60,849 nt of DNA from Segatella oulorum JCM 14966 (GTDB lineage Bacteria; Bacteroidota; Bacteroidia; Bacteroidales; Bacteroidaceae): positions 1 to 60,849 of the forward strand of contig NZ_BAJQ01000008.1 of NCBI RefSeq assembly GCF_000613785.1. The letters are read 5' to 3'. The translations under genes were made by a program, and so were the position numbers. The notes under the pieces are model-generated. The model was not told the DNA's origin and made no database searches. It saw only the letters and a list, made by a program, of their open reading frames with translations. Below, piece after piece: positions 27,431-50,400 of the stretch. Positions within the stretch are counted from its first letter, which is position 1; each line of letters starts with the position of its first letter.

Positions 27431-29158
27431 TTAAGGATAATGTCGCCATTTCGGTTTGAAACTCTGCGAATGTTTCTCCTCTTCTGCATCCTGAACAGAA
27501 AGGTTATCATTCCCTTTCCCGACAGAATGATTGTTGCCGGACAGACCCTCTCCTTGTTTCATTTCTTCCTTTGCATCTTGTTCCTCTTCCGGAGGTGAAA
27601 GTGTTAAGGCTATTTTTCTGTCCAGCTCCGCAGCTTCACTTTTAAGTGAGCGAAGCTCGTCCTCTTTTTTCCACGAGCTGTTTGCAATAGTAATGTAAAC
27701 CTCCTTACCAGCTGCTACTTTTTCCATTTCCTTCTCATGCGACTCTATCACCTTCGGGATACGCTCCAAGGCATTAATGAAGTTTTGACAGGCAAGTTTC
27801 GGGTCTGTTGCCAACTTTCCATTATTATAGGTATAGTAGATACTCTCCTGTCCTTTCACAAAGAAACGGTTCACCGAACAGTCAAACAAGTCCTTGGAAG
27901 TGCTCTCCGTTTTGACCATGATGGAAAATCCATAAACTTCACCGATTTTATTGTACTCGCCTTTGGTGCGAGCTTTTTCGTCTATTTCTTGTAAACGTGC
28001 AGCTATGACCTTGATGTCGGTACTGTCTTCCACACCTTTGATAGTCAGCTTGTTGATGGGTTGTCCATCGGCATCACGTTCCACACGCTGCTCAAATAGA
28101 GTGAGGTCAGACTGTGCCTCCTTGATTTTGTCCGAATGGAAGGACACGGAACTCTCAATCTCAGCCAACTTGCCCGTTGCGGCGTCACGTTCACGGAGGA
28201 AGTTCTTACGCTCGGATTCCAAGGTGGTAATCTTCTTATCCAATCTTGCTTTCTCCAAAAGATCGGTATTGCCAGAAAGCACCGCTACGTATTCGGAGAA
28301 GTTCATGCCGCTGTCCTCATCCATCGACCCCTCATCAATGGTACGACTGCCAAGCGTATTCGTCTTCAGCTGATTGATGAACAGCTGCTTATTGTGCAGC
28401 AGGTTGAACTTGTAGCTGTCCAAGGAACGCTCTACGGCATAGATAATCACATCGACTTTGTTGTCGGCAAACTCTTTGGCGATGAGGTTTCCCTTGCGTA
28501 CGGCACGTCCGTTACGCTGCTCTAAGTCCGAAGGTCGCCAAGGCGTGTCCAAATGATGGACCGCTACGGCACGTTGCTGGGCATTCACACCAGTACCCAA
28601 CATAGAGGTAGAACCGAAGATAATGCGAATGTCACCACGGTTCATCGCATCTACCATCGCCTTCTTTGCCTTCTCATTCTTGCACTCTTGAATAAAGCGT
28701 ATTTCGTAAGACGGGATATGATAGTCTTCCACCAGCTTTCTTTTGATTTCCGAATAGATGTTGAAGTCTCCGCCGGGTTTGTAAGTACCCAAGTCAGAGA
28801 AAACAAACTGTGTACCTTTCTGTGCGTCGTACTTTTGGTAATAGTCATTGAGCAGCTTGGCGCAGTGGCTTGCCTTGTTGTCGATATGATCTGAGTAAGC
28901 ATTCTCATCAATCATGCGTAAATCTAAGCTCATCTTCCTCGCGTAGTCTGTTGCAATCAGCATCTTTGCCCTTTCCTCGCTCTCACTCAGTGGTGCTCGT
29001 CCCAAAAGCGTGGCATCGCCACTCTTGGCAAACTCCATCAGCTTTCCGATAAAGACTTCCTGCTCGGGTGTCGGTGGTATGTTATGCAGTATCTCATTCT
29101 TCTCGGGGCGGTCGATACCGATGTCCTTGGCTGTACGAAAGTCGCAAATCTCCGCATA
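27431..29158 (-). pseudogene. C-terminal part of the split methylase-helicase (SNF2 helicase C half)
   Basis: Codes for the SNF2/SF2 helicase C-terminal domain and tail of the large N-6 methylase-helicase protein of CTnDOT-like elements (about 576 codons). Key segments: FSDLGTYKPGGDFNIYSEI, IIFGSTSMLGTGVNAQQRAV and the motif VI region DLEQRNGRAVRKGN. A coiled-coil-rich tail follows. The first in-frame ATG is at 29038, but homology runs up to FYAEICDFRTAKDIGID at the element border 29158. The N-terminal part is at 47412-52031. Removal of 29159-47432 joins the two in frame. On its own it lacks the ATP-binding half. Confidence 0.9.
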
Positions 29159-29441
29159 AAAATAATGGGTATGAATGTAATCGGTTGATTACTAATAGAA
29201 AGTAGAATATATAATCTGATAAGGTGAACGATTAAGAAACGAGCGAGTTTCTCTCCCTTTCTTTATTCTGCAAAGCCTCAAAGAACTCTCTGTTTGATGT
29301 TGCAAAGATAGCGATATAATTCATATAAGCAAAGTATTTACGTTGTTTTTTCAATGAAAATCAACCTTAGACATTTCTAATTCTATAAAATCGCCATTTT
29401 AAGGTATTGCATATATCTATGAACAATGGTAATTTTGCAAA
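29159..29441. other. Left end of the nested element
   Basis: No gene is supported. It holds a small hairpin (GAAAC-GTTTC near 29240) and a minus-strand -7 box TATCTTTG (29303-29310) that faces outward toward the helicase fragment. On the plus strand TAATTTTG (29430-29437) lies only 4 bases before the next start codon. Confidence 0.5.
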
Positions 29442-47153: not shown

Positions 47154-47411
47154 TGTTTTTTTGCTTGCAAAATTACACTTCTTCGAGGAACTTTGAGCGA
47201 TGCAAAACACTGATAATGAAAGAGAAAACACCGTTTTAGTTACCACTTTCAGCCGTCCTTTTCCTTTCATCGTTTGTCGAACGATTTGGTAACTGAACTC
47301 CCTCCTTTTCGCTCCCTTTTCTGCCTGTTTCCTATGATGCAACCCTAAGAAGAAACAAGCAATATCCGCTGTATTTCAGTCAGATATGAGTTTTATGCCA
47401 TTTTCTGCTTT
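47154..47411. other. Right end of nested element (integrase promoter and att region)
   Basis: Contains the integrase -7 box (47168-47175) and about 230 bases to the border. No other gene is supported. Core and arm sites for recombinase binding are expected here but cannot be defined by eye. Confidence 0.5.
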
Positions 47412-50400
47412 CTACTCCCATACTTCCGCATAGAAAGCAGCCAGTTCGGGCACTTTGATGAATGTCCTAAACCGTTCCTTCTGAATGATGTCGTTTGTGA
47501 TGGAGAACTCATAGTCGGTCGACTTCTTGGCAAAGACGGCTGCCCAGGCGTCAAAACTGTTGATACCCTGCTTCTCCAAAGCCTGCGGACGGAGGTATTT
47601 GAAGAGCAAATACAATTCTGTCAGACTGTTGGAAATGGTCGTTCCCGAAAGGAAAGTGGCTCCCAAGTCCTTGCCGGACCTCTCCTGTATGGTACGAATG
47701 GCAAAGAGCATGTTTAAGGCACGCTGTGAGCCATCAGGATTGCCCAAACCCGACACACGGTCGTGGCGGGTGTTGAACATCAGGTTCTTGAATTGGTGCG
47801 ATTCATCTACAAAGAGGTGGTCGATACCCATCATCTTGAAATCCACGGCATCGTCCTTACGCTCGGCGATGCTGTCCTGTATGTTCTGCAACTTGGCTTC
47901 AAGTGTCTGCTTGCGCTTCTCCAAGCCTTTGAGCATACCACGGGAGATGTCTCTTCCTTGTTGTCGCAACACTTCGAGGTTTTCCTCCACGGAGTCCATT
48001 TCCTTCTGCAGGATAGCCTCCTGTATCTCCAAGGCTTGCGGTATCATTCCGAACTGTTCATGCGTAAGTATAATACAGTCCCAGTCGTTGTTCTTGATGT
48101 CGTTGAAGATACGTTGGCGGTTCTGCTTATTAAAATCGTTCTTACCCGGATAGAGTATCTTAGCATTGGGATAAGCCTTGCGGAACGTGTCGGCAATGTC
48201 GAATACGTTTGCCTTCAGTCCGATAATCATCGGCTTGTTCGCCAAACCCAACCGTTTCATCTCGTAGGCTGCCGTACACATGATGAGTGTCTTGCCCGCT
48301 CCCACCTCGTGGTCGCAGATACCGCCGCCGTTGGTCTTGAGCATCCATACGGCATCCTTCTGGCTCTTGTAAAGGTCGGCAATGCCCAATCGTCTGAGGT
48401 CAAGGTCGGGAAATGTCTGGTGCGTACCGTCAAAGTTTGGTCGCACAAAGCAATTGAAAAGGCGGTTGTAACGGTCGGATAACTGCTGCTTGAACGTGTC
48501 AGGTGTGCGTCCGAGCCAATCGACAAAGCCCTGTCTGATTTCCTCAATCTTGGCATTTGCCATCTGGATGGCATGTCCGTCCCTTACTTTGATGGTCTTG
48601 GTCTCTCCCGTAACCTTGTCCGTCACCTCCTTGCTCTTGTTGATGTCGGGAATGGTGTTGTGCAGGGCGTGCTTGAGGAGATTGATGCCATCATAGCGGC
48701 GGAACTCACCCTGTACGGCATACTTGTGCCAGATATTAGCATTCTTTCGGTCGCAGACAATGGAATACTCGTCCATGTTGGAATGGTAGGATACGCCAAT
48801 ATCCGTCCCGAAAAACTCCGAAGCGAACCTGCCATAGACCTTGGCAGGTATCCAGCGTTCACCGAGATTGAAGTCAAGGTCGGCAAAAGGGATGGGTGTC
48901 GGCGTGGCGGCACGCAGGGCGGCAAAGCTCTGCTTCGCTTCCTCATGCTCCGGATGGTCCAAGAGCCACGACTCGATGCGCTCCGCTTTCTCGATCACGT
49001 TACCCGAAATGAACTTGTCGGCCACCTCATAGCCGTCCTCCTCCGGATTGTAGAAGATACGCCCCTCCAAAGCGGACAGCATATCACTTTCCTCCATGTC
49101 AGGAAGCAAGGAACTCATATAGTCAAGCTCCACCGTACCGTACTTGTTGAGTGATGCACCCAATGCCTCCATCGGGTCTGCGGCAACGGACAGTTCGGTG
49201 GTGGCAAATGCCGTAGGATGGTCAAAGATGTCTGCCTTGATGTACCTGCCGTTTTCGGAGCGTTCCAAGAAGAGCATTTCCACGCCCGTGGCATCCATCT
49301 TGATGATGTCGGTGTTCGTCTTCTGGTTAAAGTAGCCCCAGCGTGCAACATAGTCATCATACAGGTGGTTGAGCCTGCTGCGGTCTTCCCTGTCTTCTGC
49401 ATGGTTCTCTGCCTCGTAGTCATAGAGACGATGATAGCACTCCCGTATCTCGATATAGGCTTTGAGACGGGAAAGCTGCGCATACGGCAAGTCCATCGGG
49501 TTGAAGGTTGGATGTCGCTTTAAGTCAGAAAGAAACCCCACCTGCCCTTTCTGCACGACAATGGAGCCGTCTCTCAGGTGAGAGTCCGGCGAAGAGAGAA
49601 AAGGGCGTGGTGAAGCGTCAAACTCCTTTCTGACTTCCGCTATCGGTTTTGGCTTGCGCTCCTCGGCTTCGTTCATGAAGTCGAAAAGTGACGGCTCACG
49701 TGAAGAGGAAGAAGCTGCTTTCCTGCTACTACGAGTACGCCGTTGAGGAATAGTTGCTGCCTTTTGCATCTTGGACTCCGATGATTTCTGGGGAACAGTT
49801 TTTGTTATAGGACGATGCGCCTGTGAAGTTCCTGAATTATCCTTGATTTCATTGTTCACACGGCTGACCTCTCTTGTCCAAAGGCTGTATTCCTCAGGGG
49901 CAAATAGTGACAGCTGCTCCGGTTGTCCGATGTCTTCTATGTTATTGTCCACCACCGGATGATGATCGTCATCAAAGAATATCGTCTGTCCGTTCATCTC
50001 TCTTGGGGATTCAATATCCGTACGGATTTCCCGTTGTTCCTGCTCGTATTGATGATGAAGCGTCAGGGCGGGTACGCCTTCGGGCGCAGGTTCAACGTTT
50101 ATGGACGATTGCTCTGACACAGATTGCTGTGGTGCAGACTCCGATGATGGTGGTTGCAATGGAGTGGTCTCTCTGCTGGAAACGGTATTTTCTGTTGTCT
50201 GTGCCTTGGTAATGGTAAAATCGTCCGGTTCTATGACTTGCCCGATATTAATTCCTGTTTCAGTTTCTAATTCTTCCTTGGGCGTTTTGATTTCAGATGT
50301 TCCGTTCACAGTCTCCTTTACGGTGTCTTCTGTCTTTGTTGCCGCTTCTTCCTTGATTTCCTCTGCTACCATTTTTTCTTTGGTATATTGTCCCCTGACG

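Follow-up and report, generated by a model that had tools for sequence, protein, structure and literature searches.

The interrupted gene and the inserted element

We analysed a stretch of 60,849 nt from Segatella oulorum JCM 14966 (contig NZ_BAJQ01000008.1; hereafter the window), in which a gene encoding a methylase-helicase, itself part of the backbone of a larger element, is split by an integrative element of 18,274 bp (29159..47432, one core copy counted). The N-terminal piece of the gene (47412..52031, minus strand) carries DUF2958, N6_Mtase and the first helicase lobe, and the C-terminal piece (27431..29158, minus strand; open reading frame (ORF) starting at ATG 29038) carries Helicase_C, both being assigned from domains and alignment. 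The attachment (att) core TATGCGGA stands on the minus strand at both borders, i.e. at 29151..29158 on the C side and at 47425..47432 on the N side, and the same junctions are found in relatives. A conserved element end, GTAATCAnnnGATTAC...TTTTATGCGGA (29151..29192, minus strand), is present in 12 loci, the window included. The limits of the element follow from the comparison with relatives, high identity to their elements extending to the core and falling off in the flanking gene.

An uninterrupted protein of Prevotella nigrescens (2,094 amino acids; locus L020, 15318-21602) was used as the alignment reference. The N-terminal piece (52031-47415) covers approximately residues 1-1527 and the C-terminal piece (29161-27440) approximately residues 1521-2094, their overlap being confined to the core region, and the gene is one stop-free frame in all 26 near-full-length copies aligned. 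A preliminary description of the window, which had proposed an 18.3 kb element splitting this gene, the same short sequence at both borders and recovery of the frame on joining, is thereby borne out; precise excision would restore one frame. The decisive evidence for insertion is this frame context rather than the 8-mer, whose 3 copies in the window (1.54 expected) are weak evidence by themselves. The letters of TATGCGGA also occur inside a recombinase gene of the element (45976-45983), at the codons of the VYAE motif that holds the active-site tyrosine, and likewise in loci L114 and L118, possibly by coincidence.

The insertion separates the two helicase lobes. What remains in the N-terminal piece is a methylase-like region together with the first lobe (GAGKT close to residue 1246 and DESH at 1409, in the numbering of the piece), and Helicase_C stands on the other side; methylase activity is not implied, since the N-terminal piece showed no plain [DNS]PP[YFW] methylase motif. 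Upstream of the gene lie topB (52125..54206, minus strand) and a gene for a DUF4099/DUF3945 protein (54227..55630, minus strand), which belong to the backbone of the outer element. In relatives, the methylase-helicase is part of a topB/DUF4099 block, and the elements with this block have mob and tra genes as well; matching traG and mobB were found on another contig of the same genome; the outer element is likely an integrative and conjugative element (ICE). The nesting of one element in another is thus supported, the target being a conserved backbone gene of the larger one; of its former designation as a conserved transfer gene, the conservation stands, and a role in transfer is at most putative.

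From its right border, the element carries the two tyrosine recombinases that had been reported there, namely int1 at the border (45900..47342, minus strand; IntCTnDOT type) and int2 inside it (44616..45887, minus strand), both identified by domains and alignment. The true start of int1 is probably the ATG near 47153, since relatives have stops upstream of that point. They are followed by a DUF1896 protein assigned by its domain to the recombination module (44064..44549, minus strand), an excisionase-like helix-turn-helix (HTH) protein (42796..43110, minus strand; TIGR01764 at 30.1 bits for a cut-off of 28.8, and Pfam HTH_17), a DUF3408 protein (42299..42808, minus strand; domain) and an 89-bp hairpin segment discussed below. 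Next comes the cargo, all on the plus strand and named from domains: a PepSY_TM protein (40194..41270), a hemerythrin/PAS protein (37737..39287), an HmuY-family protein (36977..37690) and a TonB-dependent receptor (34842..36980) whose best NCBIfam models are those of haem or siderophore receptors, below their cut-offs. An outer-membrane beta-barrel protein (PF14905; 29442..31943, plus strand) lies nearest the C-side border. Judging by these family names, the cargo looks like a haem or iron uptake module.

No relaxase or mating-pair gene was found among the Pfam and NCBIfam hits of the ORFs scanned in the element, and tblastn probes for mobB, mobC, traA, traG, traJ, traM and traN, as well as a primase probe, had no match inside it. 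The 28 window ORFs scanned with NCBIfam gave no score with any drug-resistance model. In related elements, the cargo includes erm(F) in L114, tet(Q) in L121, restriction systems in both L113 and L123 and, in L112, a reverse-transcriptase defence gene.

Recurrent insertion and recombinase pairs

Genomes were scanned with the C-terminal piece as query, which gave 79 named loci (the best 80 of 157, skewed to close relatives) that were classified by script and by reading the junctions. Two sites recur: site A, that of the window, and site B, 68 codons downstream in the same gene; both fall between the helicase lobes. Thirty-three loci read through both sites (L060 with frameshifts), 13 are split at A and 21 at B, while L048 is split at both and L111 at B and at another place; six are ended by the contig end and four are unclear (L083, L099, L103 and L106). 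Altogether, 36 of the 69 classifiable named copies are split at A, B or both. Locus L055 was counted as a site-A split on the reading of its junction, and L083 was excluded from that count because mobC runs directly into the gene there. This abutment near the site A codons, as if by rearrangement, is seen in L083 (8102-9892) and L048 (8469-9905). L056 stands out among the 21 B copies in that its site A, further upstream, is likewise occupied; it matches genome G136, which bears elements at both sites; L058 is an intact locus with a B-split copy nearby.

A broader sample of 301 Prevotellaceae genomes, in which at most about six candidates were scored per genome and copies were possibly missed, contained 56 genomes with a match. 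Counted by hand, these hold about 87 uninterrupted copies (five of them below 40 % identity), 11 copies split at A and/or B and one split elsewhere. Double occupancy, which leaves a gene remnant of about 76 codons between the two elements, was observed in G136, G056, G299 (two copies) and L048.

The intact site A reads TTC-TATGCGGA-GATTTG, with the exact core in 21 of 26 intact genes. All att forms read in the family of the window's element contain GCGGA, plausibly the 5-bp coupling sequence. At site B the gene sequence is GAYTAYGC...AA, and the two sides can differ within the core (e.g. L022). Both core regions are conserved, ranking at the 98th (A) and 95th (B) percentile of 8-mers. When the exact element ends were used as patterns, the C-side pattern was found in the window alone among 393 Bacteroidales genomes, and the N-side pattern in 4 of the 301 Prevotellaceae genomes, always beside the gene at site A; since the latter pattern includes the core, it could not match G114, described below.

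The methylase-helicase is not the only backbone gene hit. In P. nigrescens F0103, topB is split at residues 314-316 by a third relative (L140, 9700-24802), within the TYPR motif, which we take to hold the catalytic tyrosine. The N-side end of the L140 element resembles that of B elements, and topB of L051 also begins at residue 314, near a contig start. Three further observations concern the gene itself. The C-side ends of B elements (e.g. L022, L034, L056, L059, L062, L123, L124) often supply an in-frame ATG (TTCTTAATGACTGAT...), which might allow translation of the C-terminal gene piece. In G245:C1 (L132, L133), the break falls at residues 1627-1629, the pieces lying about 145 kb apart; a tyrosine recombinase is found close to one of the sides, and this may be a third site. 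Finally, L099, L100 and L101, from three species, share an identical frameshift near residue 1635.

Near-identical elements were recovered at the same codon in other assemblies, in gene copies that have diverged strongly. The element of Hoylesella enoeca (L066, of which 10 kb was read) is 98.6 % identical to that of the window over 8,539 bp and 99.4 % over 1,268 bp, about 1.6 kb of the window's element being missing between the two stretches, and the flanking genes differ at 285 of 1,545 bases; with near-identical elements at the same codon of so diverged a gene, the two insertions look independent. Likewise, the elements of Prevotella sp. oral taxon 299 (L021) and P. aurantiaca (L043) are 99.6 % identical over 9,613 bp, with flanks differing at 190 of 1,545 positions, and the element of the Porphyromonas isolate L108 is 97.1 % (8,136 bp) and 99.9 % (1,778 bp) identical to that of G092. 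The latter element is shared, at an identity of at least 99.9 % over 8.2 and 1.8 kb, by G114, a member of a different genus: in G092 it occupies site A, and in G114 its place is TTTTCTGCGGA, in the neighbourhood of pcfJ and tra genes. The methylase-helicase of G114 itself reads TACGCCCA where the core stands at site A, which would explain the use of a secondary site.

In the twelve recombinases aligned, the catalytic K, HxxR, H and Y are kept, whereas Arg I is replaced by Ser or Ala; the Arm-DNA-bind_5, SAM-like and catalytic domains are present, which, together with the frequent replacement of Arg I, places them in the IntCTnDOT subgroup. A tree of 93 recombinase rows was inferred by a quick method with support from the Shimodaira-Hasegawa-like approximate likelihood ratio test (SH-aLRT), after removal of two integrase rows (one duplicate and one truncated copy) and with the rows of L108, L047 and L111 labelled by hand. 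Border and inner recombinases form separate groups, each dividing by site: border group A1 (6/6 rows) and inner group A2 (7/7 rows) have a support of 100, B2 (21/21 rows) has 95, and the 24 B1 rows all fall on one side of a branch with a support of only 50. Sites A and B therefore go with different recombinase pairs; the pair of the topB element joins the B pair in both the border and the inner groups. In eight B elements, identity to the recombinases of the window is 37-39 % for the border enzyme and 33-34 % for the inner one, whereas it reaches 80-95 % for the HTH protein and 79-92 % for DUF3408, which was detected in five of the eight. We read this contrast as a swap of the recombinase module.

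The putative origin of transfer and competing explanations

The 89-bp segment at 42115..42203 (plus strand) matches the mobA-traA intergenic region of the ICE. A longer match (41828-42203) takes in an adjoining mobA-like leader (41828..42114, plus strand) that is apparently decayed: it is 62 % identical to the ICE, vs 90 % for the segment. All 15 elements read from end to end contain the segment (window, L021, L022, L114, L118, L121-L125, L128, L140, both G136 elements and the A element of G056; L114 and L118 being nearly one element). Of the named B loci, 14 were read for 7 kb or more from the junction into the element, and 13 of these have the segment; some are elements already counted among the 15. 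Over 15 rows, representing 13 distinct elements with the ICE copies and the L140 row left out, the segment is 84.8-95.5 % identical to the ICE and the neighbouring mobA-like part 59.9-82.6 %. A second copy, 90 % identical, was found in the same genome at C105:9573-9665, beside mobB (C105:7875-9149), on a contig that also carries a 98 % TraG.

As a single strand, the segment folds better than its shuffles (z-score -4.13; 1 of 200 shuffles equal), and over 23 distinct sequences, ICE copies included, 99.0 % of the cells of the hairpin are paired. Covariation is modest, since the count of pairs with changes on both sides (two) is also reached by most shuffles, as given below, while ten cells are changed on both sides, and this value, like the covariation score, lies above all 500 shuffles. 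From its place and shape, we predict that the segment is an origin of transfer (oriT). The only match of the hairpin in Rfam, a clustered regularly interspaced short palindromic repeat (CRISPR), was below the gathering score and was rejected.

We consider it probable that the element is an integrative satellite devoid of relaxase, which mimics the oriT of its host and is lodged in the methylase-helicase gene of a likely conjugative element. Mobilisation by the relaxase of the host is predicted because the element carries an 89-bp near-copy of the host's putative oriT and no relaxase gene was found in it. The two tyrosine recombinases likely placed the element in the gene. Together with the excisionase-like protein, the pair would cut it out as a circle and insert it at a core centred on GCGGA. 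Nicking and transfer of either the circle or the composite element would then fall to MobB and the mating apparatus, supplied by the host or by a co-resident ICE, i.e. transfer in cis inside the ICE and mobilisation in trans by MobB. At the level of the family, the reading that best suits these data is a class of satellites that appear specialised on backbone genes of Bacteroidota conjugative elements.

Several observations weigh against this interpretation. The segment could be a conserved leader or promoter; it went unmatched in the B locus L068, of which the part read includes 1,416 N, and only two base pairs of the hairpin changed on both sides, a value that 330 of the 500 shuffles reach. 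Relaxase sequence is not absent throughout the family, the related B elements L121 and L124 holding pieces of mobB with broken reading frames, and one of them also part of mobC; these pieces are perhaps traces of oriT capture. On the window's own contig, one of 138, the mob and tra probes had no match. The site is preferred and not absolute, as G114 illustrates, and more than one element family uses site A, since several Porphyromonas copies split there carry other element ends. The recombinase tree comes from a quick method only, and a probe for the circular junction of site-A elements gave 0 matches in viral contigs, a weak test.

That the element is a pure passenger, moving only with the larger element and keeping the oriT-like segment as a relic or as a regulatory leader retained for other reasons, seems unlikely to us. 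In the ICE, the genes on either side of the segment diverge, a setting in which promoters would be expected too, and the C-side gene is under purifying constraint (ratio of non-synonymous to synonymous substitution rates 0.026-0.062 over 12 pairs, of which 6 are split-split, 3 split-intact and 3 intact-intact; the three classes do not differ clearly), much of its divergence probably predating the insertions. Against this stand the higher identity of the segment than of the adjacent mobA-like part over the same 15 rows, and the presence of near-identical elements in strongly diverged gene copies and at another site, which indicates that the elements move apart from any one ICE.

We give still less credence to a regulated switch, in which parking in the methylase-helicase (or in topB) would turn a function off and precise excision turn it on. 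The position of sites A and B between the helicase lobes and of the topB site at the TYPR motif would suit it, and the frame could be restored since only two of the listed split pieces have a stop (L073, and L035 at residue 2093), N-side run-ons into the element aside. However, double occupancy would require two excisions, and the targets lie in well conserved DNA, which explains their choice without regulation. Misassembly, or a gene naturally made of two, as the preliminary description had considered, can practically be dismissed: although the assembly that holds the window is fragmented (138 contigs), separate assemblies have near-identical elements at this very codon, a complete circular record (NC_022111.1) being among those with the site occupied, and the gene is uninterrupted in many relatives.

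Going beyond the satellite interpretation, we would suggest only tentatively, and with less than even confidence, a guild of ICE-specific satellites in Bacteroidota, whose recombinase pairs would have been retargeted clade by clade to different codons of conserved ICE maintenance genes (two in the methylase-helicase and one at the TYPR motif of topB). Several such satellites might board one ICE, each with a stolen oriT kept under selection, and their parking would gate the carrier up to the moment of their departure.

As regards the surroundings, no tRNA target was found for the outer element in 10 loci. Recombinase pairs near the primase gene mark either the ICE end or a neighbouring element, the border holding the published MTnPi1/MTnPi2 core in four of eight loci. 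In the window, a carbohydrate-use locus (6585-24484; hybrid two-component system (HTCS) regulator, SusD, SusC-like protein, GH43, GH3 and aldose epimerase) sits between AbiE-type toxin-antitoxin modules (4463-6264 and 25788-27348), next to the genes of the outer element; its SusC and aldose epimerase genes appear broken into neighbouring ORFs.

Relation to known mobile elements and significance

Islands without relaxase that carry a helper-like oriT are known in Proteobacteria and Firmicutes (PMC5704250). Judged from sequence, the window element resembles mobilisable genomic islands (MGIs) such as MGIVflInd1 and SGI1, having its own tyrosine integrase, an excisionase-like gene and a helper-like oriT, with no relaxase or mating-pair genes found. 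It differs from the MGIs described in that review by its occurrence in Bacteroidota and its two recombinases, and whereas the examples given there with a tyrosine integrase use the 3' ends of chromosomal genes, it lies inside a backbone gene of its putative helper (PMC5704250).

Nesting of one mobile element in another has been described in Streptococcus, where Tn1806-like ICEs are nested in snf2 of ICESa2603-family ICEs and conjugation demonstrated the nesting (PMC12942858). The likeness is close, site-specific nesting splitting in both cases a methyltransferase-SNF2 helicase type of gene of another element; but Tn1806-like ICEs, as described there, have triple serine integrases and their own transfer module, while the window element, known from sequence alone, has paired tyrosine recombinases and no transfer genes found, and its family uses two sites in the gene (PMC12942858). 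The IME_oriT group of integrative and mobilisable elements (IMEs) of Streptococcus live in the oriT of ICEs, the ICE being both host and likely helper as proposed here; according to their description they target oriT and bear their own relaxase, whereas our element targets a protein gene and no relaxase was found in it (PMC7563843).

Within the Bacteroidota, the tandem pair of unlike tyrosine recombinases recalls the "Tyr duo" of MTnPi1-3 of Prevotella intermedia, whose att core consists of four bases, N5 and two bases (PMC4755523, PMC5704250). These elements carry a relaxase and a primase, neither of which was found in the window element, and are rated low in site specificity by the review (PMC4755523, PMC5704250). 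Excision of P. intermedia tandem-pair elements was detected by polymerase chain reaction (PCR), and it was suggested that both recombinases may be needed (PMC4755523). The recombinases share with those of CTnDOT-type elements the arm-binding, SAM-like and catalytic domains and the replacement of the first catalytic arginine, which is described for CTnDOT and for some members of the IntCTnDOT subgroup; the present elements differ in having two recombinases each, the pair at site A being unlike that at site B (PMC8138268). The ermF region of CTnDOT-type elements has itself been described as an ICE-carried IME derivative (PMC5704250). Each feature thus has a precedent, and the combination turned up in none of the openly licensed papers listed by searches on nesting in Bacteroidota, on the target gene and on the recombinases.

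Internal integrases have been noted in conjugative elements of Prevotella, and the elements described here probably account for them: in its account of CTnPi2 and CTnPi3, the study that noted them suspected inserted MTn-like elements and saw no att sequences (PMC4755523). This hitchhiking layer bears a haem-uptake-like module, resistance genes, and restriction and defence systems. The pairing of recombinases with sites makes the choice of target directly testable. In streptococci, a gene of this kind has likewise become a target, there of serine recombinases unrelated to the present ones. The use of one kind of gene by unrelated recombinases of two phyla suggests that satellites find reliable addresses in the conserved genes of ICEs.

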